DNA of 64,000 nt from the NCBI RefSeq assembly GCF_030730865.1, contig NZ_JAVALZ010000001.1:1302001-1366000 (forward strand). The letters run 5' to 3'. The DNA is from Uliginosibacterium sp. 31-16 (GTDB lineage: Bacteria > Pseudomonadota > Gammaproteobacteria > Burkholderiales > Rhodocyclaceae). The notes below the pieces were generated by a model. It saw only the letters and a program-made list of their open reading frames with translations. It did no database searches and was not told where the DNA came from. Positions 40,325 to 56,525 of this stretch are shown piece by piece (positions within the stretch are counted from its first letter, which is position 1; each line of letters starts with the position of its first letter). Made by a program: the position numbers and the translations under genes.

Positions 40325-42286
40325 TCAAGAAGTTAGTTGAGACATCAAGGGCCAGTCTTCCGGCACCAGTGCAGGCGGTTTGGTCCATGGCTGTTCAACC
40401 AAAGAATCTTGGAACCACTGGTCTCGAAGATTGGCATGTTCGGTCACTATGAGCTGGAAACCAGGGACGTCCTTCTTCGTGAAATTCAGCAATAACTCGA
40501 ACAAGCGACGGACTGCTGCCAGATCGGCATCTGCCTCCGTTTTCTGAACAGTTCCATCCGCTTCTTGGTAGACCTTCTCCGAAGGGAAATAGACTTGGGT
40601 TGGCTGGTCGATCAGCAGAAACTGAGGAATCGGGCAGTTATTCTTCGAGGCGAAAAGGTGCAGAGCCAGCAATGCCGAGAGGTGATAAGCCAGATGGTTC
40701 TCACCACCGCCGGTTCGGCTCATAGGCACCGGACGATCCGGGCGGTCGAAAACGATGGTGAGATGATTCAGGTCGAAGCGTGCAGGGAAGGCGCTGAACT
40801 CCGCTTCGAAAATCTGGATGTACCGTGATACCTGCGCAGAGATGTTGTTCAGAACTGAAGTTAATCGTTCGTGACTGTCGTCGGCACCGACTTTTTTCTC
40901 AAGTTCTTCGACCTTGAACTTCAGGCGGCGGTGCTCTGCTTCGCGCGCAATCAACTCCGCATTGGGAACAAGATTTTCCAAGAACAAGCTGATGCGACCG
41001 ACAACCCGTGCCGCCGCGTTGTTGCGCGTCCCCATTTGCGCGATCACTTCATTGGCTGCGATCGCAGCAGACAACTCCGCTTCCTTATTCTTTATCGCAT
41101 CCACGACCTCGCGTACCTTGTCATCCTGCTCGGCAAGGTACGCCTCCAATTTGGGGCGTTGGCCCACGACAATGCTCATTTCTTCGTCGAGTGTTGCTAG
41201 TTCTTTAAGGAGCACTTGTGCAACAGGAGACTCCAGAGCCAGGTTCGCTTCGCAGAATGGCCACTGCCATTCACCGGTCTCAGGGTTCTTGGGGAGGGCC
41301 TTAATGGACGCGAGTCGATCTTTTTGCTCCAGCGCCTCACTTTCAAAGCCGCCAGCTCGCTTAGAAAACAGGCGAGCGGCATCGACCTTAGATTGGGCCT
41401 CCCGTCTGTCCTTGCGCAACTGGCTAATCTCCTCTTCGAGCCGAGATATTCTTTGACCGTCGTCGTCGGGAACCGAGGCCGGCTTCCATTGCAGGGCAGT
41501 ACGCAGGGCGTCGATAACGCCGTCTGGCCCAGCCTGCTGATTCTCCGGCGTGATGATACCAACCACCTTGGCCTCCGAGAAAAGGCCGATTCCCTTCTGC
41601 TGGGACGTATCGATGGCATCACGCGCCTGTTCGAGGAGCTTTGCGCTGAGCTTCAGCTCACGCTGTGCTGCGCGTAGTTTGGCTTCCAGCTCATACCGGT
41701 CATTGGATGAAATGCCAAGAAGAATCGGCAAAGTGTCGCGGATCGCCTGCGGCTGAAACGCTTCATTCTGACGATAAAAAAGTTGGTCTTTGTTGGCGAC
41801 AATGCCCTGTTTCTGGAATAAGTAGTAGTACGTGTGCTTGACGTTCGCGTCATAGCTTTCCCGGCTGTGTTCTATCGCAACGTCAGTACGGTTCTCCGGG
41901 ATGCCCAACAGCCGCGACAGCAGTGCAGCCACCGCATCGTCATCGGTGTTGACCACCAATTCTCTAAAGTCGGGGATTGCCAGTTGATGCCCTCTTCGCT
42001 GCATGGCGGTGCTGCAGCTTATGGCACCAGCGCTAGGCGTGGGTTTTGCAATCAGTACTTGTTCCTGAGGGAACTGATAGATCACAACGAACCACGCCAC
42101 CTTGTCGCGAATGATGCCTTCTGGAACATTGAAGGTTGAGCGCCCCATGCAGTATTCGATGATCTCGGAGAGTGCTGATTTTCCGGTGGAGGAACGGCCA
42201 GTGATGACGTTCAGGCCATCCACTTTGAATTGAAGATCTCGGCGCTGCCCGTCGTGACTGTAGATATGAATCGATTTGATTTTCAT
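40325..42286 (-). CDS. ABC-3C system ATPase, DUF3732 (SMC/RecN-like)
   Basis: A 653-residue SMC-like ABC ATPase. Walker A is GRSSTGKSAL at 30-39. The middle (about 190-480) is coiled coil (EEEISQLRKDRREAQSKVDA) interrupted by an unusual hinge with WPFCEANL where a zinc-type cysteine pair is partly lost. The C-terminal head has signature SRTGGGENHLAYHLSA and Walker B PQFLLIDQPTQVYFP. In the ABC three-component systems described by comparative genomics, this ATPase is thought to sense invading DNA or complexes and license the effector. Its ATG overlaps the middle-component stop (ATGA). Confidence 0.85.
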   Translation of the reverse strand: MKIKSIHIYSHDGQRRDLQFKVDGLNVITGRSSTGKSALSEIIEYCMGRSTFNVPEGIIRDKVAWFVVIYQFPQEQVLIAKPTPSAGAISCSTAMQRRGHQLAIPDFRELVVNTDDDAVAALLSRLLGIPENRTDVAIEHSRESYDANVKHTYYYLFQKQGIVANKDQLFYRQNEAFQPQAIRDTLPILLGISSNDRYELEAKLRAAQRELKLSAKLLEQARDAIDTSQQKGIGLFSEAKVVGIITPENQQAGPDGVIDALRTALQWKPASVPDDDGQRISRLEEEISQLRKDRREAQSKVDAARLFSKRAGGFESEALEQKDRLASIKALPKNPETGEWQWPFCEANLALESPVAQVLLKELATLDEEMSIVVGQRPKLEAYLAEQDDKVREVVDAIKNKEAELSAAIAANEVIAQMGTRNNAAARVVGRISLFLENLVPNAELIAREAEHRRLKFKVEELEKKVGADDSHERLTSVLNNISAQVSRYIQIFEAEFSAFPARFDLNHLTIVFDRPDRPVPMSRTGGGENHLAYHLSALLALHLFASKNNCPIPQFLLIDQPTQVYFPSEKVYQEADGTVQKTEADADLAAVRRLFELLLNFTKKDVPGFQLIVTEHANLRDQWFQDSLVEQPWTKPPALVPEDWPLMSQLTS

Positions 42287-42771
42287 GGGCGTATTCCAAA
42301 TGTTGTGTACACCGTCACGCGGTCTGCGATGCGCGCGAATTCTTTTCCAACAATGCGTGCGACGCGCTGGCAGGAGATGGACTCATCGGTCCCTGTCACG
42401 GATTTCCGAACGCGTTTCGGCACAGTCTTCAATCGGCCATCTTGTGACACGACAAAACATCCTCGTTCCATCAGCACGCCAAAAGCTTCGAGCGCAAACG
42501 GCAGCAGGTCACGGGCGCGGTCGGCGAAGCCAACCAGCAACTGAGGATTCTTTTCAACGATTTTCAGAAGATAGCTGCGAGAACTGCCCGCGATCACTTC
42601 GCGAGAGTCTTTCTGCAAACACAGCGGCAACACCAGCAGCGCAAGGGAGAACGGCATCCCGTCCGGGTTCTCCTCCTCGTAGCCTTGCAATGCCCTGAAA
42701 AGGACCAGGCCGCAGAACGCGGGGTTGAAAAGATTTTTGACTTCAAATGGTCGTTGGTCCCATCTTTTCAT
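42283..42771 (-). CDS. ABC-3C system middle component
   Basis: A 162-residue protein of the MC type that links ATPase and effector in three-component ABC systems. The FNPAFCGLVLFRALQGYEEE start, the LALLVLPLCLQKDSR segment and the wHTH-like middle (LLVGFADRARDLLPFALEAFGVLMERG, in parts) fit that group. It overlaps both neighbours by 4 bp, so the three proteins are made together. Assignment to a numbered MC class is not attempted. Confidence 0.78.
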   Translation of the reverse strand: MKRWDQRPFEVKNLFNPAFCGLVLFRALQGYEEENPDGMPFSLALLVLPLCLQKDSREVIAGSSRSYLLKIVEKNPQLLVGFADRARDLLPFALEAFGVLMERGCFVVSQDGRLKTVPKRVRKSVTGTDESISCQRVARIVGKEFARIADRVTVYTTFGIRP

Positions 42772-43988
42772 TCTGCGGCCCCCAACAACTGGCCGACACG
42801 GTCAAGGAAACGTGGGTGCCAATAGACTCTTGGAAGCGGTCGGCTGTTTGCAAGAATATGAAATCCGCCGCGCACAACATAAGGCTCGGTCACACGCTCC
42901 CGAATGCGAAGTGCGCTGCTGTCACCACTCTCCAAATCAGCCCATCGATACAGCGCTTTGCCCGCTTCCAAGAGAACTGAATCCGCGCTGTCCTCATCAA
43001 GTTCCTCGAAGACCACATCCCGGTAGCGACTCCATTCATCCACAAGGCGGTCTTCGTATTCTTCCATTTCTCCCGAAACAAGAAGATTTTGGCGAGCCCA
43101 GGAAGACCGCTGCTCGAAAGCTCGGTAGTAGTCCAATATGGCATTGCGAATGCGGTTGGAGGCAATTCCAATTTCTCGCAGTTGGACAACAAACAGGCGC
43201 GGATCATTGTCTGCGTCGATTTCTCCTGCGGGCACCTTTCCTCGGAAGGTGATCGGGAGGTTGTCTGACTTGTACTCCTCGGCAAACGCGGAAAGCTTGT
43301 CTGAGATTTCGTAACCGAAGATGGCGTCTGTACGCTTTCCGACCAAAAGATTGACGATGGTGTCATTCCACCAACCTTCGAGGCGCTCGAAAATGGCGTC
43401 GCGGTTGTCACGCTGGATGCTGCGCATATGCTGGTCTTTGATGATTGAAGGCACATCGTCGATGCGCGGCCCTCCATCAAATATCACGATACGCGCAAGA
43501 AAATCATCCTTCTCGTCATCGTTGAGTTTGTGGAATTCGGTAGCGATTTCACCAATGAGTTTCGAATCAGACCTAGCCAGAGCGTCGGCAGCAACCTGTG
43601 ACAGGGATGCTCCCGCGTCGTCTGTCGGAGGTTCCGGCAAGAAGCGCTGTAAAAACGAGGTATTTGAAACGGTGCCCGTCGAAAACAGAAAGAAGCGGAG
43701 ACTCGCCTCGCTGCGCCCATCGCGATTGTAGCGAGCCAGCCAGATTCGGACTGACTTCCAGAAGTCCGTAGACAAGTCAGTCAGACGATCACCAACTCCC
43801 TTGTGTTTAAGTGAGGCGAGCGTTTTGACGCCACCCTTGTCAAGGAAGTCAAGGTCGTCGTCTTTTTCAATTAAAACCGATGTGCTCTCTGGCAACTGCA
43901 AGAGCCGAAGCAGTGCAAAGCGGGGCTGGTAGATGTACCCCAGTCCCTGCTCGCCGGCCGAATACTGGTCAGTAGAACTCTCCGCCAT
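42768..43988 (-). CDS. ABC-3C system effector with restriction-endonuclease-like domain
   Basis: A 406-residue protein. The N-terminus reads GLGYIYQPRFALLRLLQLPE, then IEKDDDLDFLDKGG and LASLKHKG. This is the Cap4/DUF4297-type nuclease pattern: Glu41, an acidic pair near 44-47 and a lysine at 61 in the xLK position. The C-terminal 200 residues end in GGFHILANSRPLPRVYWHPRF, as in ABC-3C effector C-terminal domains. ATG 43988 follows an AAGGA site and starts just before the nuclease domain; the frame from 44072 is less likely. Predicted to cut DNA when released by the ATPase. Confidence 0.78.
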   Translation of the reverse strand: MAESSTDQYSAGEQGLGYIYQPRFALLRLLQLPESTSVLIEKDDDLDFLDKGGVKTLASLKHKGVGDRLTDLSTDFWKSVRIWLARYNRDGRSEASLRFFLFSTGTVSNTSFLQRFLPEPPTDDAGASLSQVAADALARSDSKLIGEIATEFHKLNDDEKDDFLARIVIFDGGPRIDDVPSIIKDQHMRSIQRDNRDAIFERLEGWWNDTIVNLLVGKRTDAIFGYEISDKLSAFAEEYKSDNLPITFRGKVPAGEIDADNDPRLFVVQLREIGIASNRIRNAILDYYRAFEQRSSWARQNLLVSGEMEEYEDRLVDEWSRYRDVVFEELDEDSADSVLLEAGKALYRWADLESGDSSALRIRERVTEPYVVRGGFHILANSRPLPRVYWHPRFLDRVGQLLGAAE

Positions 43989-44350
43989 GCTCAAGTCCTT
44001 GCGTCCATTGTTAATGTTAGAGGGGGCGAAGGAATGAAAACCCGCCTCAACATGATATTGCCCTAAATTCATGCTAGGCAGCTAGTTTCAACCGGCGCTT
44101 TGCCGACCAAATTTTGCTAGCGGCCGAGAGGCCGAAAAGGCTGAACTACCTCACAAACGTAGGCCAGCCGAAGTTGAATCACGTTTGATCCACCCATACA
44201 CACTCTGACATGATGGTAGCGCAGCCGCATTCGTGACTGCGCCACCCCTCCTGCAGCACCAATCCCCACGCACTTCCCGCACCGCGCCAAGGCCCGCCCT
44301 TGGCGTTTTGCTTTGTGCTGCGCGGGTGGCTCACTTTCACAGGAGCCATC

Positions 44351-45256: not shown

Positions 45257-46174
45257 ATGACACGCAATACACGGCTGAGCGCCGAAACGCTCACAGAGGC
45301 CGATTTAATGGCAGCTGCACGTGCAGCCTCGACGCGCAGCGAGTACGCTAAGGATGTTCAATACTTCGCGGCGGCGGGGTACAGCATTCCCGCCACCGTT
45401 GGCGAACTGGCCGAGTACATCACCAAGGAGGCCGCACGTATCAAACCGCGCACGCTGGCAAGACGCCTAGTCGCAATTCATGTCGCACACACTGAGCGCG
45501 GGCACGCCAGCCCTGTGCATGCGCCACGGATCAAACAGCTCATGAAAGGCATTCGGCGATCAGTTGGAACGGCACCGCGTCAGGTTGCCGCATTGATGAA
45601 AACCGATCTGCTGGAGCTGCTGCTGGTGGCAAACAAAGGGCGGCCGATGCAGGCAGCGCGTGACGTTGCCTTGCTACTGGTCGGCTGGGTGGGGGCGTTC
45701 AGAAGAAGCGAGGTTGCTAGCCTGCGAGTGGAGGATGTGAGCTGGCTGGACGGCAGCGCTATTGAGATTCTGCTTCGGCACTCGAAAGTGGATCAGGAAG
45801 GGCAAGGCTACGTGAAATTCCTGCCAGCCTCGCATGGTGCATGGTGCCCGAGCAAGGCGCTCAAGCACTGGCTTGAAGTATCGGGCATAACCAGCGGTTA
45901 CATTTTCCGGCCGATCAATCGTCACGACCAGATCGGTGACGCAGCTCTAACGCCACACTCCGTGGCTCGTATCGTCAAGCGATTGGCCGAGCAGGCAGGG
46001 CGCGACCCTAGCGCCTACTCGGGGCATTCATTGCGCAGCGGCTTCGTATCGGCGGGGATTTTGGCGGGCGTGCCGAGTTACCAGTTGATGCAGGTGACAG
46101 GGCATCGAAGTGAGGCGACCTTGCAGAAGTACGTGCGGATCAGGGATCGGCGCAAGATTACATCCCTGCTGTGA
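45257..46174 (+). CDS. Second tyrosine recombinase
   Basis: A 305-residue XerC/D- or phage-like recombinase: core-binding domain (STRSEYAKDVQYFAAAG) and catalytic residues Arg150 (FRRSEVASL), Lys177, His257 and Arg260 (GHSLRSGF), His283 (TGHRSEATL) and Tyr292. It is about 40% like typical plasmid-borne integrases in layout only; no search was run. ATG 45257 gives a normal N-terminus; an ATG at 45068 would add 63 residues and is coupled to the preceding stop. It lacks the arm-binding domain of the main integrase, so it probably acts at a different site. Confidence 0.82.
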   Translation: MTRNTRLSAETLTEADLMAAARAASTRSEYAKDVQYFAAAGYSIPATVGELAEYITKEAARIKPRTLARRLVAIHVAHTERGHASPVHAPRIKQLMKGIRRSVGTAPRQVAALMKTDLLELLLVANKGRPMQAARDVALLLVGWVGAFRRSEVASLRVEDVSWLDGSAIEILLRHSKVDQEGQGYVKFLPASHGAWCPSKALKHWLEVSGITSGYIFRPINRHDQIGDAALTPHSVARIVKRLAEQAGRDPSAYSGHSLRSGFVSAGILAGVPSYQLMQVTGHRSEATLQKYVRIRDRRKITSLL

Positions 46175-46179
46175 AAAGC

Positions 46180-46464
46180 GCCGCCCGTGTTTTCATCGAC
46201 TGTTAGCTGTCGAATTGGAATGGCAAAGCAGGCCCTAATTCGACGTTTGAGGTGAAGGACGGAAGACTCGCTGAGTGTGTGGATGACAAAGCCATCGCGA
46301 GACAACTTAGCCACCGCTCAAGTACCCACTCATGCTATCTGTCATTTCTGAACGTCTGCACGCGAAGATACCGAAAAGTCTCTTTTTACGGAGACCAATT
46401 GCAACCATTGGTTACCCAGTGATTGAGGAGGAGCCGAGAGCCGTCCTTCAGGTCGGAGTTTAAC
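46180..46464 (-). ncRNA. Candidate DRT3-associated non-coding RNA
   Basis: This 285-bp space has no gene. On the minus strand, in line with and just after the second reverse transcriptase, it carries CACACAC (46275-46281), an ACCAAT/ATTGGT hairpin (near 46390-46413) and a GTCGAATT/AATTCGAC hairpin (46209-46244). DRT3 systems are reported to use a structured RNA; as I recall, an ACACAC template in that RNA directs one of the two polymerases. The end points and the RNA itself are inferred. Confidence 0.42.
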
Positions 46465-48420
46465 TCAGTACGCCTGCTTAAGCTCTTTTTTCTCAAGTGA
46501 GTTAAGCAAATCAACGTCAGCCCAATCGATCAGGGCACGACTTTGCCCTGTAGATCCCAGAAAAGCCTGCAGGCTAGCGGTATTCGGCTGCGCCTTCTGC
46601 AAGGTACGATACAAACTTTTCGTCCATGCAGACTTCTGAGCATCATCTACATAAGGACAAGAAAGTAGATCCAAAAACAGATACGCCTTTTCGCTATCCA
46701 TCAAAATATCGGAAAGGTCATTCAGCTTCATACAAGCCGCTTTGAGCAAAGCTTTTCGGATGTCCTTATATCGAGACTCGTCACGCACATAAAAAAGACA
46801 AGAAACTATCGTGAAATACGACAATTGCTTGCCTTGTATGAATAAATCGTTAATAACTTCAGGCGGCAAAAGATGTTCGGCTCCCAGCTCTCGGATTGCG
46901 AGAACGACATTAAGATACTCAAGATGCACAAATCCATCTATACCCTCAGCGTGCTTCACCCCACACTGCTCAAGCAGTAGCTCCGCAGAAAGATCATAAA
47001 TTCTCTGCGCTATTGTTGCAGAGTGCTCAGGCAGGTGGCGATTGCTAAACCTAAGCGAAAGGATAAGCGAAGTACTAAGTTTGTAAGATGCGCCTACCGA
47101 TGGAGAGACGCTATAGAGAAAGAAGAGCACATCCAAAAGAACCTCTAACGCCCCTAGGTACTCACTTTGATCGCCCGCGCCAGCACTGCCAGGAACATTG
47201 TTAACTAATCTTTTTATTCGCTCTGTAATAACAGATATCAGGAATGAAGCTATTTCGTCGTAGCCTGACTCAACAGAAGCGCAAAGAGACTTAATGGAAT
47301 CTATATAGCTCTTTGTCAGCTTCCAGTGAGAGTGAACTTTTATTGGAACAAGCTTTCCGACATCCGTCTGATGCAAAAATTTATCAAAAAAGTCGTTTGC
47401 CTGGCGCCCGGCATCGAATATCAGGCCAGACTTTGGCGTCAAAAAGGGTCTTCGAATCGTATCCGATTTCGCTGAATTTGCATGCAAATTGAACCCAACT
47501 AGCACGTCGGCGTATATGTCGTAAATTTTGCGTGCAACATCTTCGTTTCTGGCAAATATAAACACATCATCCACATACCGACGAAATGCGTAATCAACCC
47601 CATAATTGGAGCTCAGCAGTTCAATAGCCTTTCGATCAATTTCTTGAAACAGAATTTCTGCAAAAATCCGGCTAACCTCAGGTCCGATTGGAATTCCATT
47701 CGTCTCGTTGTGATTTCCGTGACGAATAACATGATCGAACTCTTGTGCGAATGTGGTAAATACAGACACATTCTCCTTCGTGAACGCTTTGTCCTTCACG
47801 CCCCAAGAGAGGCAGTGGGTGTATATGCTATCAAAGCATTTAGACACATCTAGTGTCATCAAAACTGAAAATCTTTTTTCCAGAGAAAAATAATCTCTAG
47901 AATTGAAAAATTTGTACAGTCGGTCGTATCCTCGATACGAAAAATAGGAAGGCGTGTGCTTTACATACCGATCAAGATTGTCGACGGAAACAGAACCGTT
48001 TTTGTACTGATTTATGTTTTCCCAAGAACTCTTTCTGTAGTAGCTACCCGCCACCCGCCTCGGGGCACGAATCGACGCCGGGCTTATCGAGCAGTAGTGA
48101 AGAATCAATCGCTCGTATTTTTCATAGAAGCCACGAATTTTCCACTGAGAAGACGGGTGCAGCAGAGCCAGTCTGCGAAATTCCTGAGCATTCTTTTTTA
48201 CTTTGTATAGATATGGAACCGTTGCGCTAACTGATTTGCCAGCCCCCTCGCCAAAAACCAGCGCCTGTATGATCGTTTTTCGTACATCACAGGCTTGATC
48301 ATACAAACCAATCTGCTCGTAAATACCGTCATTGGAAAAAATAATTGGGGTCTCGAACGGCAGGGTCTCGGTAATCAAAACCCTGTTATAGTCTCCGCGT
48401 TTTATTAGATTCTTCTTCAT
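46465..48420 (-). CDS. drt3b: Antiviral reverse transcriptase Drt3b (DRT type 3)
   Basis: A 651-residue protein. The reverse transcriptase core has the first catalytic aspartate in TLDVSKCFDSIY (Asp191), NGIPIGPEVSRIFAEI, and the polymerase box RRYVDDVFIF (282-285). The C-terminal 350 residues are helical. Size, order and pairing with the upstream reverse transcriptase match DRT type 3, which protects against phages; the Drt3b partner is reported to extend DNA without a nucleic-acid template. It begins 9 bp after drt3a. Base composition is far more AT-rich than the chromosome. Confidence 0.85.
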   Translation of the reverse strand: MKKNLIKRGDYNRVLITETLPFETPIIFSNDGIYEQIGLYDQACDVRKTIIQALVFGEGAGKSVSATVPYLYKVKKNAQEFRRLALLHPSSQWKIRGFYEKYERLILHYCSISPASIRAPRRVAGSYYRKSSWENINQYKNGSVSVDNLDRYVKHTPSYFSYRGYDRLYKFFNSRDYFSLEKRFSVLMTLDVSKCFDSIYTHCLSWGVKDKAFTKENVSVFTTFAQEFDHVIRHGNHNETNGIPIGPEVSRIFAEILFQEIDRKAIELLSSNYGVDYAFRRYVDDVFIFARNEDVARKIYDIYADVLVGFNLHANSAKSDTIRRPFLTPKSGLIFDAGRQANDFFDKFLHQTDVGKLVPIKVHSHWKLTKSYIDSIKSLCASVESGYDEIASFLISVITERIKRLVNNVPGSAGAGDQSEYLGALEVLLDVLFFLYSVSPSVGASYKLSTSLILSLRFSNRHLPEHSATIAQRIYDLSAELLLEQCGVKHAEGIDGFVHLEYLNVVLAIRELGAEHLLPPEVINDLFIQGKQLSYFTIVSCLFYVRDESRYKDIRKALLKAACMKLNDLSDILMDSEKAYLFLDLLSCPYVDDAQKSAWTKSLYRTLQKAQPNTASLQAFLGSTGQSRALIDWADVDLLNSLEKKELKQAY

Positions 48421-48429
48421 GGCAATGAA

Positions 48430-49698
48430 TCAATTCTTCCAGCACCGCTGTATGTCAGATATTCTCTGCCCTGAGAAGTGTACAAAACTCTTGGAGGCAT
48501 GCCCTCGGGCAAAACTATACTTTAGCAATTGGCGCTTTTGCTTGCCTTCTAGAAGCATTGCGGAATTTGAGAAAACCCTTCCACTATTTGCAAGTACTGC
48601 ATTTCTCAAGAATCGATCAAGCTCAAGAAGGCCTCCTGCGCTGACGGTAACAAGTGGGTAACTGTGATAAATCCCGGCAACTTTTTTCCCGCCAGCCTTT
48701 GGGTTGTATACGCTGAAATTTTGCGTCAAGAATGCAATCCGGTCACGAAGCAGATGCCAGTCATTGTTCTTGCTAAAATCAAAGAATGAACGGACGAGAC
48801 GCGTTTTAATTTTCTTTATTTTTCTGCTTGAGATGTCCACCCAAACAGATCGGCTCAAATCCCCGTCTTTCTTTTTCCCCGCTTCAGTTTTCGTCGGATT
48901 TGACACCGAAAAAGCATAGCCAAGATAGTCAAATTCGATCAACTTTACAGGATGAGAGCCGCCATCCTTGGCTACTTTTGTCAGTATTTCAACGATAGCT
49001 TTCTTGTCTGGATTTAGATCAAGCCCGCTAGGAAGTGCACCCCTTAATTCTCGAACAAAACAATCTTGCTTTTCCCTAGCGGACGTGACAATTATAATGT
49101 CATCAACATACCTAGAATAATAAAAAACATCACTTGCTGAACGGACGAAGTGGTCAAATCCTCTCATGAGGAGATCAGAAAGGACTGCGCTGAGCGCCAG
49201 CCCTCTTGGCACGCCGCTCCCCCCAATCGAGCCATGAGCATCGAGAACAGCTTCGATTAGTGATTTGCTCTGTGGGCTGAGACGCCGAAGGTCGCTCAAC
49301 ACTTTCAGCACTTCAGATTTCTGGAAAGATTCGTAAAAGCTTCGTATATCAAGACGATATACGCGATACGGAACCCCCTCTGCCAAAAGCAAGCGTAGAT
49401 TGGCTACGATTTGCGATCGCCCCTCTCCATTTCTCGGGACGCAATACTTCAAATTTTGAACCACCTTGCGTGCAAGCAGTTCGTCTTGTTTTCTCAGAAA
49501 TCGGTAAACAGGCTTCCCTTTCAATGGGAAGCTTACGAGAGGCTGATGAGGTGCATTGAACTTTGATAAGGCTGAAGTAACAGCCCCTGCCAGCACTTCT
49601 TCACGAAACGCAGAATGCGTGGCAGCCGGCAATTTCCGGAAGTCTCGCTTAAATAGCACGCGCTCTAACGTCTTCCGGCAAATAGACTGATCGTACAA
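48430..49698 (-). CDS. drt3a: Antiviral reverse transcriptase Drt3a (DRT type 3)
   Basis: A 422-residue reverse transcriptase. Start codon is TTG 49698, chosen because an AGAGGTGG ribosome site lies just upstream and the product starts MYDQSICRKTLERVL as in Drt3a proteins. Catalytic residues are Asp117 (YRLDIRSFYES) and the YVDD box at 197-200 (YSRYVDDIIIV), with GVPRGLALSAVLSDLLM between. A C-terminal thumb follows. No nuclease is fused. It is expected to copy an RNA template into repeat DNA with Drt3b. Confidence 0.86.
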   Translation of the reverse strand: MYDQSICRKTLERVLFKRDFRKLPAATHSAFREEVLAGAVTSALSKFNAPHQPLVSFPLKGKPVYRFLRKQDELLARKVVQNLKYCVPRNGEGRSQIVANLRLLLAEGVPYRVYRLDIRSFYESFQKSEVLKVLSDLRRLSPQSKSLIEAVLDAHGSIGGSGVPRGLALSAVLSDLLMRGFDHFVRSASDVFYYSRYVDDIIIVTSAREKQDCFVRELRGALPSGLDLNPDKKAIVEILTKVAKDGGSHPVKLIEFDYLGYAFSVSNPTKTEAGKKKDGDLSRSVWVDISSRKIKKIKTRLVRSFFDFSKNNDWHLLRDRIAFLTQNFSVYNPKAGGKKVAGIYHSYPLVTVSAGGLLELDRFLRNAVLANSGRVFSNSAMLLEGKQKRQLLKYSFARGHASKSFVHFSGQRISDIQRCWKN

Positions 49699-49785
49699 AA
49701 TAAAACCACCTCTTGTTGTCCATCGTAAACAACTGCGCTTCTAGGCGCGCCTCTGAACTAACCGCTTAGAAGGCCTCCGCTTTAC

Positions 49786-50213: not shown

Positions 50214-51548
50214 CTATCTCAACTTCGTCATGAAATCGACCATGGACGGGGGTAGGCCTTCGTCTTTTACGATGCCATCGCCAGACGGCCGGAACAGTGC
50301 GGCAAGCACTGTTTTCAGATCCTCACCTGCTGGAAGCTTGTTCTGGCTGATCAGGGCAAGATAGGTTTCTGCCATTGTGACGCGCTCAGCAGCATCATTC
50401 TCAAGGTGCAAGTGGCTGAGGAATACGCGCACGACCAGGCGAATGAACCAGAAACTCAGGGTGGCGATCAGCACCAGTGCGGCGACCTCGAAATGCCAGG
50501 AGCTGCTGAGCGCCTCAACTGCTGCCGGGGCAGACGCCCCCGCTTTCGCAACCTTGGCGGCGGCATCTGCAAGCGCCGCATTCTGGGCGACCACATCACC
50601 GACCTTGCCAACTTTCCAGAAGAGCAGCCATCCAAGCAAGACCATCGTCACGGCGGACGCAATGCCGGACCCGAGAGCCCACTTCGCGTGACGCTCGCGT
50701 TTTTTCGTCCAGTAATGCACAGGCGCCTCAAGGCTCATATGCACGTGGTAGGTTTTTTCCAATGTCTCCAGTCGAGAGCGAGCATCGGCCAGCTCTTTCT
50801 CCCACGCTGCATTTCTGTCAGATTGGGCCTGATCCCAAGCTCCAGATCGCTCCTCTTCAGCGGCCTCGAAAGAAGATTGATTGGACGTCGTTTTTTCAAC
50901 CACGTCGGCGTCCAGTATCCGAAAGCGCTCAACTACTTCTGCATCCAGCGCATGGAAGCGCTCAACCATCTCCCGCTCAAACTCGCTGGACTTGGAAAGC
51001 CGCATACTGAACTCGGTAGCAAGCTTCTCCAAGGCCAAGCGCTCTTGCTTGGAACGATCCTTGTAGCCACGCTCAAAGAGTTGCAGCTCCAGAACACCTT
51101 CGACCACATCCTGCATGTAGTTCGCGTCATTGACGTTCTGGCCAAAGTAGATTGCAGCGACCACACAAGCAACCCGCCAGCGCCCTTCACCTTTCAGGCG
51201 TTCGATGAATTCAAGCTTGCTGGACTTGCTTACCAGCCAAGGAAAGGAATTGAACCAGCCCTGCATGCGATTCGCCGCATTCCGCAGGTTGCCTGCTGCG
51301 TGGTCTCGTTGCCCTTGACTCTCGTATTGCATCGCCTGCTCGATGAGGCTGCGACAGTTGTGCACTTGGCTGACCAAGGCATCCCAAGCCCTCGAACTGC
51401 CCGAAATGCCATGCTGGTTTAACCAGCTCCATTGGTTCTGCAGGTTACTTAGCCAAGCAATGAACTCTTGCCCGCTATTCCAAGTAAGCGTCGTGCCTGT
51501 TTCCGCGAGGGTCAAGGAGAGATAGGGCGTGGCTGGGGTTTCGCTCAT
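50214..51548 (-). CDS. DUF6161-type membrane protein of the type I restriction operon
   Basis: A 444-residue protein. The first 190 residues are soluble, followed by a coiled coil (about 180-270: VERFHALDAEVVERFRILDADVV repeats, in parts) and two membrane helices near 290-315 and 350-375. I assign it to DUF6161, a family of unknown role, on layout only. Its ATG overlaps the hsdS stop (ATGA), so it is made with the restriction enzyme; it may anchor or regulate it, or be a separate defence gene. Confidence 0.62.
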   Translation of the reverse strand: MSETPATPYLSLTLAETGTTLTWNSGQEFIAWLSNLQNQWSWLNQHGISGSSRAWDALVSQVHNCRSLIEQAMQYESQGQRDHAAGNLRNAANRMQGWFNSFPWLVSKSSKLEFIERLKGEGRWRVACVVAAIYFGQNVNDANYMQDVVEGVLELQLFERGYKDRSKQERLALEKLATEFSMRLSKSSEFEREMVERFHALDAEVVERFRILDADVVEKTTSNQSSFEAAEEERSGAWDQAQSDRNAAWEKELADARSRLETLEKTYHVHMSLEAPVHYWTKKRERHAKWALGSGIASAVTMVLLGWLLFWKVGKVGDVVAQNAALADAAAKVAKAGASAPAAVEALSSSWHFEVAALVLIATLSFWFIRLVVRVFLSHLHLENDAAERVTMAETYLALISQNKLPAGEDLKTVLAALFRPSGDGIVKDEGLPPSMVDFMTKLR

Positions 51549-52750
51549 GCGGCACCTGTGGGGGCGAAGGTCTGCGCCAGCAGCGCGTCAAACAGCTCAC
51601 GGCTCTTGGCAAAGGCTGCGGTTTGCTGGGCAATGATGCTTTGAGCTTCTGCCAGTCGGCTGGCAAATTCTTGCTGCAGGCTAAACGGCGGAATGGGTAG
51701 CACGAGTTCCATTAGCTTGCCCTGTGAAATATTCTTCATAGAGCCGCTCGTGCCAGAAGCAATCTGACTCAACTTGCTTCGCACGCTCTGGTTCTGAAAT
51801 AACGCGAGAACAAAGAGCGGCTCCATAGGAACATCATCCTTCCAGACAAAGCGCCATAATTTGTCTGGAAGAAGCGTGCCAGGGCTTTCTTCGAAAACGT
51901 AAGCAGTCGCCCCCACTAGTTCCTCAGTGTTAGCTCGGCTAAACAGCAGATCGCCTTTCCTAACAAAGTGGCTTTCCGGCGCGATGTATCCCTGCGGCAC
52001 AGGTTTGCTTTCCCCTGACCGATAGACGCCTTGGGTAACCGCGCTAACCTTCAAGATACGCAAAACACTTGCCGCCTCGTCTTCGCCAGCAGCTTGGAAA
52101 TTTTTCCCGCCTTGGAATGCGGCAACGAAGTCGGAAACCTTGCGCAAAGGCCACCCCTTCGGGTTCGTCGCCGGGTCGCCGAAATGCTCCACGAACAGCG
52201 CCGGGATCAGGGCTTTGGCACGGTCCAGTGCTTGCTGTTGCAGCCGCACAATACCTTCTGCGCGTGAGAGCACATCAACAATGCCTTGTTGTTTTTCTGC
52301 GGTAAAAAGGGGGATTTCCAGACTCTCAACAAATCCAGATTGGACACTGTGAACTGTCGCGCCTTTTTTTACGCCACGCTCTAGAACCTGTGATGCACAA
52401 GACCGAACAAACCAGTTTAGATATACGGGATCAATACGCTCGTCTGTGGAGATGAGAGCTTTGATGTCTTGGTTAAATGCCAGAGGGCGCAGGGCTCTTG
52501 CGACAGGAAAAGAATGCGCAAGGATGCCTGAGCGCACGACGACAAGCGTTGCGTCGGAAGGAACTACACACGTTGCAGACCGACCCACTGCTTCTTGAGA
52601 AATATGGTCACTGGCATCATCCAGCGTGGATGCCTTCATATCTTTGGGAGAGACCCAGGGGATATCTCCGCGCCAATAGGCTTCGTTTTCCTTGCTGGGA
52701 GTGCCGCCATGCCTTATCTGGCAAACAGCCTTCAGGGGCAATGAAATCAT
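51545..52750 (-). CDS. hsdS: Type I restriction specificity subunit HsdS
   Basis: A 401-residue DNA-recognition subunit with two target recognition domains (about 5-150 and 200-355), each followed by a long helix (EKQQGIVDVLSRAEGIVRLQQ and LQQEFASRLAEAQSIIAQQ, in parts). Motifs such as YWRGDIPWVSPKDMK and SGTSGSMKNISQGKLMELVLP are typical. Domain boundaries suggest a bipartite site that cannot be read from sequence. Overlaps hsdM by 4 bp (ATGA). Confidence 0.92.
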   Translation of the reverse strand: MISLPLKAVCQIRHGGTPSKENEAYWRGDIPWVSPKDMKASTLDDASDHISQEAVGRSATCVVPSDATLVVVRSGILAHSFPVARALRPLAFNQDIKALISTDERIDPVYLNWFVRSCASQVLERGVKKGATVHSVQSGFVESLEIPLFTAEKQQGIVDVLSRAEGIVRLQQQALDRAKALIPALFVEHFGDPATNPKGWPLRKVSDFVAAFQGGKNFQAAGEDEAASVLRILKVSAVTQGVYRSGESKPVPQGYIAPESHFVRKGDLLFSRANTEELVGATAYVFEESPGTLLPDKLWRFVWKDDVPMEPLFVLALFQNQSVRSKLSQIASGTSGSMKNISQGKLMELVLPIPPFSLQQEFASRLAEAQSIIAQQTAAFAKSRELFDALLAQTFAPTGAA

Positions 52751-54369
52751 TGACCGCCCTCTGCGAGAGCTGAGCGCAATGCCTCAACCTCTTCCGCAAT
52801 CTCAACCTGAATCGCCGCCAGCTCATCCAGAATTTCCTTCGGGCTGCGATGCACCGCGGCGGTTTGCGTCAGCGGGCGATAGCGTCCCGCCGAGAGGTTG
52901 AAGTCCGCTACCTTGAGCGCAGCCAGATCGGCAAACCACCACTTCTCGGGCCATTCGGCTTTGTCGTCGCGGCCTTGCCACTGGCGCAGCAGGTCGAAGC
53001 GGCTGGCATAGCAGGCGGCCAGTTGCGGCAGGTCGTCGGCTTCAATCGGGGTGTCGTGGTTGGCATCCAGTTTGAAACCGTCGTTGTCGGCTTGCAGAAA
53101 CAATACTTCGCGCGTGCTGCCACCTTTCTTGAAGAACAGCACCGAAGTCTTGACGCCGGAATACGGCTGGAACACGCCACCGGGCAGGCTGAGCACGGCT
53201 TCGACGGTGTTGTTTTCCAGCAGCATGCGGCGCAGTTCCTTGTGCGCACCGGTGGAGCCGAAGAGCACGCCTTCCGGGATGATGACGCCGCAACGACCGC
53301 CGGGCGCAAGGCTGTCGAGCATGTATTTAAGGAAGAGCAATTCGGTGGCGGTGGTGCTGCCGATCTTCACGTCTTCAACGATGCGGTCTTTGTCGACACG
53401 CCCGGAGAACGGCGGATTGGCGAGCACCACGCTATAGGTCTGCGGCAGGCCCAGCTCTTCGCGGCGGGAATCATCCAGCGTGGTGGTGAGCACGTTGCGC
53501 AGCAGGATGCGCACGTTCGGCAGGCCGCGCAGGGTGAGGTTCATGCTGGAGAGCCGAACCATCTTGGGATCAACGTCGTTGCCGTAGAAGGTGCGATTCG
53601 CCAGTGTTTGCGCGTCTTCGAGACTCAGGCGGTCGCCAATGCCGCGCAGCACCTGCTTGCCATCCACATCGGCCAGTTCGCGCCCAGCTTCGGATGAGTG
53701 CTGCAAACGGATGTGGTTGTAGGCGGCGACCAGAAAGCCTGCCGTGCCCGCAGCGGGGTCGTAGATGGTCTCGCCAACCTGTGGATTGACCATCTCGACG
53801 ATGGTGCGGATCACATGGCGCGGCGTACGGAACTGGCCGAGTTCGCCGGCCTGCTTGATCTGGCGAAGCACGTGTTCAAACAGGTCGCCCTTGGTGTCGG
53901 CGTCTGCTTCTTCCAGCCGCAAGCCATCGACCAGGGTGATGATTTGCGTGAAGACGGTCGGTTCGTCAATCGAGAGACGCGCCCCGGCCATGAAATTCAC
54001 GGCGGATTGCTGGGCGACCTCGCCAAAAAAGGCAAAGGCTTCATCGCGCACGAAGCGCACCAGCGCTTCGCCCGACAAACCCTTGGCCCACACCGACCAG
54101 CGGAAGCGACTCTTGGGAATGCTGAGCGCGCCGGGCTTATCGGCATTGAGCGGGTTTTTGAGCTGCCAATCACCTTCGAAGATCGAGGTGAAGGGCTGTT
54201 TGTACAACTCCGCCGTCATCTGGTTTTCGGCGTCGATGCCTTCGATGAGATAGAAGAAAAACAGGAAGGCGAGTTGCTCCGCGTTGCTCATCGGGTCGGG
54301 GTAGCCACCACCGAAAAGGTAATCCCGAATCTGGTCAATCTTGCGGCGCATGTCGTTGGTCAAGGGCAC
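52747..54369 (-). CDS. hsdM: Type I restriction DNA methyltransferase subunit HsdM
   Basis: A 540-residue N6-adenine methyltransferase. The N-terminal HsdM domain (MRRKIDQIRDYLFGGGYPDPM) is followed by the SAM-binding motif YDPAAGTAGFLVAA and the catalytic NPPF (VVLANPPFSGRV). GTG 54369 after AAAGGAAC is the best start. Forms M2S with HsdS for methylation and R2M2S for restriction. It lies 23 bp after hsdR. Confidence 0.94.
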   Translation of the reverse strand: MPLTNDMRRKIDQIRDYLFGGGYPDPMSNAEQLAFLFFFYLIEGIDAENQMTAELYKQPFTSIFEGDWQLKNPLNADKPGALSIPKSRFRWSVWAKGLSGEALVRFVRDEAFAFFGEVAQQSAVNFMAGARLSIDEPTVFTQIITLVDGLRLEEADADTKGDLFEHVLRQIKQAGELGQFRTPRHVIRTIVEMVNPQVGETIYDPAAGTAGFLVAAYNHIRLQHSSEAGRELADVDGKQVLRGIGDRLSLEDAQTLANRTFYGNDVDPKMVRLSSMNLTLRGLPNVRILLRNVLTTTLDDSRREELGLPQTYSVVLANPPFSGRVDKDRIVEDVKIGSTTATELLFLKYMLDSLAPGGRCGVIIPEGVLFGSTGAHKELRRMLLENNTVEAVLSLPGGVFQPYSGVKTSVLFFKKGGSTREVLFLQADNDGFKLDANHDTPIEADDLPQLAACYASRFDLLRQWQGRDDKAEWPEKWWFADLAALKVADFNLSAGRYRPLTQTAAVHRSPKEILDELAAIQVEIAEEVEALRSALAEGGQ

Positions 54370-54392
54370 TGCGTTGTTCCTTTGTGAGCTGC

Positions 54393-56525
54393 TTACAGCC
54401 GTGCGGAGAGCGGCTTGTTGTTATCGTCGATGTCTTTGAAGACGGTGGCGTTGAGCGCTGCAAGAAGCTGATTGAGCGCTTCTGCGCCGCCGAAAATTTG
54501 CACCCAGCGTGGCAGGCCGCCATTGTTCTTGAAGGCGGGAATCACGGCGAAGTGCTGCGGTTTGATTTCGCGGAACTGATCGGGGCTGGCTTTGATCTGC
54601 TCGCCCAATTGCAGCAGAAGCCGGAGCTGATCGCTATTGAAAGTGTTTTCCAGCAGCCAGGATTCGAAACGGGCACCCAGCAATTGGCGTTTCGCTTCGG
54701 CATCATCGAGCTGAACCATGTTCCCTGCCTCATCAATCGTCACCCAAGCGCGGCTGGTGGGATCAATGTGGTCAGTGATGTCGAGCATGAGTAACTTGCG
54801 AGGCTGCGACTTATACGGCTTGGCCTTTGGTTGCATGACGCCACCGTTCGCGTATTCAAGTTCGTCGCGGTGGTGATCCGTAACGCCCACGAAATCGAAC
54901 AGGGTGAAAACGGGTTTGTTCTTGGCCTTGCGCGTGCCGCGCCCCCGCATCTGCTGGTAGAGGATTTGCGAAGCGGTGAAGCGGGCAAAAATGAGATTGA
55001 CCACATCCGGGCAGTCGAAGCCGGTATCCAGCATGTTCACGCTGACCAGAATCTGCGGGTAGGTTTCCTTCTTGAAGCGCTTGATGATGGTGGCCGCATC
55101 GGGCGTGTCTTCACCATTGCCAAGATCGGACACCACGTAATCGGCATAGCGGATATCGGGGCTTGGCTTCTTGTCGGCAAAGGCTTCGTCAAACATGCGG
55201 GCCAAGGTTTCGGCGTGGCGCTTGGTGACGGCGAAGACGATCGTCTTGCCCATCAGGGGCTCGCGCTTGATGCCGCGATGATCAATAAAGCCGCCTTCGA
55301 GCACCTGCCGGTATTCGCGGACGATGGCACGGTTGCGCTCGGGGATGGTGAATTTGCGCTCCAGTGCAGCAGGCTCAACGATCATTTCGTCTTTGTCGCC
55401 AAAGGCCGCTTCGAGCAGGCGTCGCGTTTCGCCATCCACAGCAGACCAGTCGATTTCAGACTTTTTGACCGGGAAGCCGCCTTCTGCCGCCGTCTTGACC
55501 GTCTTGGCCTTGTAGATCTGGTAGGGCACAAGATGACCATCGGCGATGGCCTGGTGCATTTTGTAGCTGAAGGTAGGCTTGTCGACCTCGAAGAATTTGA
55601 GTGTGTCGCGCACGAAGGCGCCATCTTCCGCATCGCCGGATTCTTCAACGTTGGCAACGCAGGGCGTGGCGGTCAGGCCCACGGTGATGCCGTCAAAGTG
55701 CTTGAGCACCCCAGACCACTTGCCATAGATGCTGCGGTGGCATTCGTCGGTAATGATCAGATCGAAGTAGCCCGAGGAATACTCGTGGTACAGGTTGATC
55801 ATGCTCTGCAGGGTGGTGATGGTGATGCGCTTCTGGTCCTCAAAACGCCGCCCGGAGCGCAGTGTGTAGCAAGGGTAGTCGCGCAGGTGCTCGGCGAAGG
55901 CGTCTTCAGTCTGCAGGGCAAGCGGGATGCGATCCACCAGAAACAGCACGCGAGTGACCAGATTGGCATCGAACAGACGCTTGATGAAGGCAGCAGCGGT
56001 GCGAGTCTTGCCGGTGCCGGTCGCCATTTCGACCAGGAGCTTGCGGCGGCCTTGCTTGATCTCCTTACACAGGGTGTCGATGCATTCGAGCTGGTAATCC
56101 CGCTCAACGATGGTCTTGTCGATTTCCACTGTAAGCGGGTCGCGCTGGAGCTGGCGCGTGGCGACACGGCGTTCCAGATCGTCCTGTTTGAAGAAGGTGC
56201 TGACCGGGTGTGGATGTGCTTCGTTGCGCCAATCCCAGAAGCGGATTTCTTCACCGTTGCTCAGGAACACAAAAGGCACATTGAGCTGTTCGGCGTACCC
56301 GCGCCCCTGCATGGCGGCATCGGCAGGATTGATGGCGGCTTTCTTGGCCTCGATGACAGCCAAGGATCGGCCGTGCCGGTCGCACAGCACGTAATCTGCG
56401 CGAGTGCCATCCGGCAAAGTGTATTCATAACGGACACTCTGACCATCGTCCAGTTTCCAGCCAACGTCTTTCAGTTGCTGATCTATCTTGACGCGGGAGA
56501 AGGCTTCTTGCTGTCCGTTGGCCAT
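54393..56525 (-). CDS. hsdR: Type I restriction endonuclease subunit HsdR
   Basis: A 710-residue motor/nuclease subunit. The N-terminal nuclease has the D/E-xK site in RADYVLCDRHGRSLAVIEAKK (in parts). The helicase core shows Walker A MATGTGKTRTAAAF, DEAD-like TDECHRSIYG, LTATPC, and motif VI QMRGRGTRK. It is the first gene of the operon hsdR-hsdM-hsdS-DUF6161, an uncommon order. The frame appears intact. Confidence 0.94.
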   Translation of the reverse strand: MANGQQEAFSRVKIDQQLKDVGWKLDDGQSVRYEYTLPDGTRADYVLCDRHGRSLAVIEAKKAAINPADAAMQGRGYAEQLNVPFVFLSNGEEIRFWDWRNEAHPHPVSTFFKQDDLERRVATRQLQRDPLTVEIDKTIVERDYQLECIDTLCKEIKQGRRKLLVEMATGTGKTRTAAAFIKRLFDANLVTRVLFLVDRIPLALQTEDAFAEHLRDYPCYTLRSGRRFEDQKRITITTLQSMINLYHEYSSGYFDLIITDECHRSIYGKWSGVLKHFDGITVGLTATPCVANVEESGDAEDGAFVRDTLKFFEVDKPTFSYKMHQAIADGHLVPYQIYKAKTVKTAAEGGFPVKKSEIDWSAVDGETRRLLEAAFGDKDEMIVEPAALERKFTIPERNRAIVREYRQVLEGGFIDHRGIKREPLMGKTIVFAVTKRHAETLARMFDEAFADKKPSPDIRYADYVVSDLGNGEDTPDAATIIKRFKKETYPQILVSVNMLDTGFDCPDVVNLIFARFTASQILYQQMRGRGTRKAKNKPVFTLFDFVGVTDHHRDELEYANGGVMQPKAKPYKSQPRKLLMLDITDHIDPTSRAWVTIDEAGNMVQLDDAEAKRQLLGARFESWLLENTFNSDQLRLLLQLGEQIKASPDQFREIKPQHFAVIPAFKNNGGLPRWVQIFGGAEALNQLLAALNATVFKDIDDNNKPLSARL

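Follow-up and report, generated by a model that had tools for sequence, protein, structure and literature searches.

Known DRT3 systems and the Uliginosibacterium locus

DRT3 is a defence system in which two reverse transcriptases act together with an RNA, and its mechanism has been described for Escherichia coli (PMC13174585, PMC13314766 and PMC13213688). In the E. coli system of Wang et al. 2026, DRT3a copies ACACAC, an experimentally tested template, into poly(dTdG), whereas DRT3b uses Y666 as the starting point for poly(dCdA) and chooses each base through E22 and R241. Together the products give duplex DNA, and the system is restrained by RecBCD (PMC13174585). The E. coli DRT3 of Deng et al. 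2026 has been described by reviews as a 6:6:6 RNA–protein complex (PMC13314766, PMC13213688). Here, a stretch of 64,000 nt from Uliginosibacterium sp. 31-16 (contig NZ_JAVALZ010000001.1), referred to as the window and used for all locus coordinates, was found to carry a locus that is very probably a sequence-complete defence operon of the DRT3 (UG3+UG8) type together with its RNA. The genes, the key residues, the conserved RNA pairing and the conserved template are all present, and RNA expression, DNA products, complex assembly and defence would be expected by analogy with E. coli DRT3. The window locus looks intact and is distantly related to a system in which the second polymerase needs no nucleic-acid template for the sequence that it writes, and the DRT3 interpretation proposed in a preliminary description of this DNA is supported.

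The drt3a and drt3b genes

The locus consists of two neighbouring minus-strand open reading frames (ORFs), 49698–48430 followed by 48420–46465, which are separated by 9 bases.

48430..49698, minus strand: drt3a, 422 aa, TTG start, class 2 (UG3) reverse transcriptase
46465..48420, minus strand: drt3b, 651 aa, class 1 (UG8) reverse transcriptase

Both proteins contain the YVDD motif (residues 282–285 in Drt3b), and the order drt3a to drt3b, adjacent and on the same strand, is that of DRT3 (UG3+UG8). The curated NCBIfam cut-offs are clearly exceeded by Drt3a (NF041747, 380 bits, cut-off 200) and by Drt3b (NF041748, 651 bits, cut-off 350), with both ORFs open across nearly the full length of the family profiles. 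In PADLOC, Drt3a scores 461 bits (runner-up family, 82 bits) and Drt3b 727 bits (runner-up, 131 bits), placing the two proteins within the Drt3a and Drt3b clades, as the preliminary description had required of them; its account of adjacent, non-identical reverse transcriptases with YVDD boxes and the order and size of Drt3a and Drt3b agrees with these results. Among solved structures, the nearest chains come from E. coli, namely PDB 9z6y_A for Drt3a (E 2.6e-84) and 9z6y_H for Drt3b (E 1.1e-164), the second Drt3b chain being 26cz_A (E 1.2e-89).

Printed alignments place E23, R82, R251 and Y651 of the window Drt3b at E22, R71, R241 and Y666 of the protein of Wang et al. (PMC13174585), which was taken to be PDB 26cz because these four residues fit one offset, and counterparts of D182, F187, Y276, V277 and D278 are likewise present. 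Glu26 and Arg253, the residues named for the protein of Deng et al. (via PMC13213688), align with the same E23 and R251. The candidate priming tyrosine, Y651, is the last residue of the window Drt3b.

The RNA region downstream of drt3b

A gene-free stretch of 290 bp lies between drt3b and a convergent tyrosine integrase gene (end 46174); 285 bp of it (46180–46464) had rightly been described as a gap without a gene. The CACACAC run reported there was located at 46281–46275, on the strand of drt3a and drt3b. The downstream regions of 23 closer loci were considered and 16 were chosen for alignment (L049, L050, L052, L061, L062, L063 and L107 being omitted). The consensus of the 16 RNAs comprises 23 pairs in four helices, with changes on both sides in 17 of the 23 pairs, and its covariation score of 0.519 (0.241 in shuffles) was reached by none of 500 shuffles and falls to 0.125–0.157 when the partners are slid by 1–3 columns. 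ACACAC occurs in all 16 RNAs, at one place between a hairpin and the closing helix. The features of the region are as follows.

46232..46467, minus strand: DRT3 non-coding RNA region, with approximate ends; the model match starts inside the drt3b stop codon
46275..46280, minus strand: ACACAC, invariant in the 16 aligned RNAs, putative template
46441..46449, minus strand: P1 closing helix, 5' arm GAAGGACGG, partner 46262–46254; double changes in 8 of 9 pairs across the 16 RNAs
46254..46262, minus strand: P1 closing helix, 3' arm CCGTCCTTC, partner 46441..46449
46431..46434, minus strand: inner helix, 5' arm, partner 46269–46266; 79.7% of cells paired
46266..46269, minus strand: inner helix, 3' arm, partner 46431..46434
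46367..46372, minus strand: stem-loop 3, 5' arm, partner 46326–46321; double changes in 6 of 6 pairs
46321..46326, minus strand: stem-loop 3, 3' arm, partner 46367..46372
46317..46320, minus strand: TGAG, 5' half of a 4-bp clamp enclosing the hairpin and the template, partner 46275–46272
46272..46275, minus strand: CTCA, 3' half of the clamp, its first C being the last C of ACACAC
46282..46316, minus strand: hairpin ending directly 5' of the template in the minimum-energy fold, candidate template boundary

Covariation does not support the TGAG:CTCA clamp, because its sequence hardly varies, and by eye the clamp is not kept outside the closer group. The hairpin at 46282..46316 was likened, by position, to stem-loop 4 of PMC13174585, and hairpins of differing sequence were seen by eye at the equivalent place in several related RNAs. 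A simple stem search found a hairpin of at least 4 pairs ending 0–2 nt before the template in 63 of 84 clusters of related loci (control, 44.5%), an excess that is modest and, by this search, not universal.

Two covariance models were built, R2 from the 15 other RNAs with the window held out, and R1 from all 16. When applied to the whole 64-kb window, R2 gave a sole match up to E 10, at 46467–46232 (127.2 bits, E 8.7e-38), whereas the gap at 49699–49785, the other interval for which a covariance search had been suggested, gave none, the only match in the window being that downstream of drt3b. Among 73 sources outside its training set, R1 clearly found L056 (E 6.5e-5) and weakly found L107, L063 and L103 (E 0.021–0.31); no match up to E 1 was obtained in the remaining 69, and 11 loci retried singly gave E 0.12 or worse. 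Rfam at gathering thresholds reported just two tRNAs in the whole window. Between the RNA and the end of the integrase gene, the minus strand also carries a hairpin with arms GTCGAATT and AATTCGAC (46209–46244), after which no T run follows; it could be a terminator lacking a T run or part of a recombination site.

Conservation of the template and of the base-selecting residues

A genome scan confirmed 489 relatives, of which the best 80 were analysed; together with seven plasmid loci, one further locus (L002) and the window, these gave 89 rows, and in 87 the sequence downstream extended for 230 nt or more. ACACAC was found on the sense strand within 300 nt downstream in 83 of the 87 rows (other strand, 4 of 87), the four rows without it being two Snodgrassella loci (L057 and L059) and two loci with broken or cut frames (L082 and L104). 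Viral contigs returned 31 loci. ACACAC was present within 500 nt in all 22 viral loci whose Drt3b has a tyrosine as its last residue or directly beside it, a set that may include near-duplicates and has two short frames (L142 and L144); it was absent from the broken viral locus L133 and present in one of 8 more distant viral reverse transcriptase loci, one of which has no downstream sequence. The four E. coli loci fetched all contain ACACAC, at 42 to 234 nt.

The cleaned count comprised 107 loci, that is, the 89 rows plus viral loci, E. coli loci and a third Snodgrassella locus, 10 of these further 28 having failed the complete-frame search (among them E. coli L121). Nine loci were dropped as incomplete, including E. 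coli L122 with its altered Drt3b end, and the 98 kept formed 86 Drt3b clusters at 90% identity. ACACAC lies within 300 nt downstream of drt3b on the sense strand in 84 of the 86 clusters and on the other strand in 4, and it is the most widely shared hexamer among them. The first such run in the sequence reads ACACAC in 78 and ACACACAC in 6 of these 84 clusters, and no template variants were found among them. Conservation of the motif in homologous loci, on which the preliminary description had staked its reading, is thus borne out by both the row and the cluster counts.

Across the 86 clusters of complete Drt3b, the E22 site holds E in 63 clusters and D in the other 23, while R occupies the R71 site in 85 (N in L037) and the R241 site in all 86; the first aspartate of YVDD is D in all 86, and the second is D in 81 and N in 5. 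The cluster set had been prefiltered for a tyrosine within the last four Drt3b residues, so that the presence of the Y666 counterpart in 86 of 86 is partly by construction; without that filter, the C-terminal tyrosine was found in 85 of 87 aligned rows, and in the remaining two a contig end truncates the protein. Template and base-selecting residues are kept together in 84 of 86 Drt3b clusters, which, judging by record names, span several phyla. Two side observations concern these residues. The Drt3b proteins of L087, L092, L093, L110, L113 and L114 carry YVDN instead of YVDD while keeping the C-terminal tyrosine and ACACAC, and L122 (E. coli CFSAN064035) encodes a Drt3b with a fragment identical to PDB 26cz, but with a different C-terminus that lacks the terminal tyrosine.

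Proposed mechanism and rival explanations

By analogy with the E. coli system, Drt3a would repeatedly copy the ACACAC of the RNA into poly(dTdG), with the hairpin directly 5' of the template probably limiting its reading, and Drt3b would start DNA on its own last residue, Y651, alternating dC and dA selected by E23 and R251, in a protein-primed and protein-directed synthesis of poly(dCdA). The two strands may then pair into a repeat duplex DNA that would lead to growth stop during infection. All sequence features of the E. coli mechanism that are open to testing are present in the window, and the same activity is predicted. The model given in the preliminary description, with an ACACAC template and a partner working without a nucleic-acid template, is as PMC13174585 reports for E. 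coli.

Several observations weigh against an active DRT3 operon of the E. coli type. By folding energy the window RNA does not stand out (z −1.14; 24 of 200 shuffled sequences are as stable or more so), although covariation supports its pairing, and simple promoter and terminator scans yielded no site for the RNA. The pairing is supported for only 16 RNAs, which were chosen by the authors from 23; of the seven omitted, L107 (55% Drt3b identity, 14.9 bits) and L063 (14.8 bits) are barely found by the model and the other five are not found, nor is the E. coli RNA found above chance by R1. Outside the closer group, just position and template are common to the RNAs. Finally, one step of the mechanism published for E. 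coli cannot apply in its stated form, since recC has no match at E ≤0.001 in the genome that contains the window (completeness 99.75%), while the E. coli control was detected.

An operon that looks intact yet is silent or decayed in its host, with the RNA not being made, would accommodate the TTG start of drt3a, the lack of a promoter or terminator in the simple scans and the position of the locus among other defence genes. Nevertheless, neither frame is interrupted across almost the full extent of the family profiles, the catalytic, selecting and priming residues as well as the RNA helices and template are retained, and in the alignment the TTG start falls on residue 1 of its E. coli counterpart, which makes silence or decay improbable. 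It is far less probable still, to the point of being scarcely credible, that ACACAC arose as a repeat by chance and that the conserved RNA region serves as a regulatory leader or terminator instead of a template. Some such stretches are expected to hold the hexamer (a mean of 6.1 of 86 and a maximum of 12 in 200 first-order Markov resamplings), but its occurrence on the sense strand in 84 clusters, against 4 for the opposite strand, argues that its presence is not due to chance, and the motif occupies a fixed place in the 16 aligned RNAs and is the template tested in E. coli (PMC13174585). A DRT3 operon with a template RNA is thus the preferred reading of the locus.

Exceptions in Snodgrassella and the question of host restraint

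Three Snodgrassella loci (L057, L059 and L157, forming two clusters) have both frames open and keep YVDD and the final tyrosine, yet none has ACACAC within 700 nt downstream; within 10 kb on the sense strand, the hexamer is absent from L057 and occurs once in L059, at 8295. Between L057 and L059, dN and dS are 0.34 and 1.45 for drt3a and 0.29 and 1.16 for drt3b, which speaks for selection on both proteins. When R1 was run on the three Snodgrassella genomes, nothing better than E 2.6 was obtained, a result that is uninformative because the model is narrow.

With regard to the host, RecBCD, whose restraint of DRT3 is a finding from E. coli and does not define the system, was not found in the Uliginosibacterium genome, where the best recB match reaches 143.8 bits (cut-off 696). 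Instead, adjacent AddA-like and AddB-like proteins give their best scores to the AddAB models, both below the curated cut-offs (450.8 bits against 860.75, and 115.8 against 486.5). The genome also encodes GreA (179 bits, cut-off 139), which acts as a host factor in E. coli. RecBCD restraint of the E. coli type cannot act here in that form, as RecC is missing and an AddAB-like pair is found in its place; the enzyme clearing the DRT3 product in this host is, on the same grounds, probably AddAB-like. Fifty of the 80 DRT3 genome loci, mostly from isolates, were queried for recC, which was matched in 29 of these other host genomes (26 over the cut-off) and not in 21, single absences being weak because many of the genomes are drafts. 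Among the 22 RecC-less genomes, that of the window included, an AddA-type match at E ≤1e-30 was found in 20 (above 300 bits in 16; in four, at 143–170 bits, AddA is not separated from RecB) and none in two, whereas only 3 of 8 RecC-bearing controls gave such a match, none above 141 bits.

These observations indicate that the host restraint of DRT3 reported for E. coli cannot be universal, and the guard question is therefore directly testable. Tentatively, and with doubt slightly outweighing belief, it may be proposed that DRT3 is not tied to RecBCD, that AddAB would check the repeat duplex here and in many DRT3 hosts with phage AddAB inhibitors as the trigger, so that the guarded object would be the main end-resection nuclease of either type, and that the Snodgrassella lineages, in which purifying selection acts on both DRT3 proteins, would use a different or distant RNA template. 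In the collection of papers searched, none joined DRT3 with AddAB and none joined DRT3 with Snodgrassella.

Genomic neighbourhood

Upstream of drt3a and on the same strand lie a DUF6161 protein gene with a weak AbiZ match (50214–51548, minus strand, 48.6 bits) and type I restriction-modification S, M and R genes (51545–56525, minus strand). A Lamassu-like three-gene set is located nearby at 40325–44072 on the minus strand, with matches to LmuB (438 bits), LmuC (55 bits; also the Pfam ABC-3C middle component MC3) and LmuA (235.5 bits; also CTD7), and an AbiJ-like gene (weak match, 40.3 bits) is also found near the locus. Flanking direct repeats were considered as an island boundary and rejected, as no repeat family of at least 18 bases was found in 40000–64000, and a search of the genome with 46100–46300 gave no further copy at E ≤0.001. 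In E. coli GF3-3 (L120), drt3 is flanked by a phage polarity suppression gene on one side and, on the other, by an integrase gene next to ssrA, as in a P4-like satellite.

Comparison with known systems

The E. coli DRT3 of Deng et al. 2026 (PDB 9z6y and 9z6z; via PMC13314766, PMC13213688 and PMC13174585) has the same two proteins in the same order as the window locus, from which it differs in that no RecC match is found in the genome of the latter. In GF3-3, whose Drt3b contains the compared 9z6y fragment, the ACACAC stretch likewise lies between drt3b and a convergent integrase gene, although the gap there is 147 nt, compared with the 236 nt of the window model match, and the sequences differ. 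For the system of Wang et al. 2026, E22, R71, R241, YVDD and Y666 all have counterparts in the window, and the ACACAC RNA is similarly downstream of drt3b (PMC13174585); its Drt3b (26cz) is more distant from the window Drt3b than that of 9z6y (E 1.2e-89 versus 1.1e-164). The RNA fold and template of the window are shared by the Burkholderiales DRT3 loci L039–L048 (e.g. from Parapusillimonas, Pusillimonas, Comamonas, Acidovorax and Bordetella genomosp. 7), with a Drt3b identity over the best segment of 63–68% in 8 of 10 and of 53–54% in L046 and L047, while a tblastn search (E ≤1e-5) of the 89 rows matched the window integrase in none but the window itself. In DRT9 and DRT10 (PMC13174585), a reverse transcriptase also copies a short RNA template repeatedly, as in DRT3, but these systems have a single reverse transcriptase and no Drt3b partner. 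The DRT3 kind of system was thus already known, and what is added here is the breadth over which its RNA template and base-selecting residues are conserved together, along with two exceptions, in host restraint and in Snodgrassella, that mark testable gaps in the published model.

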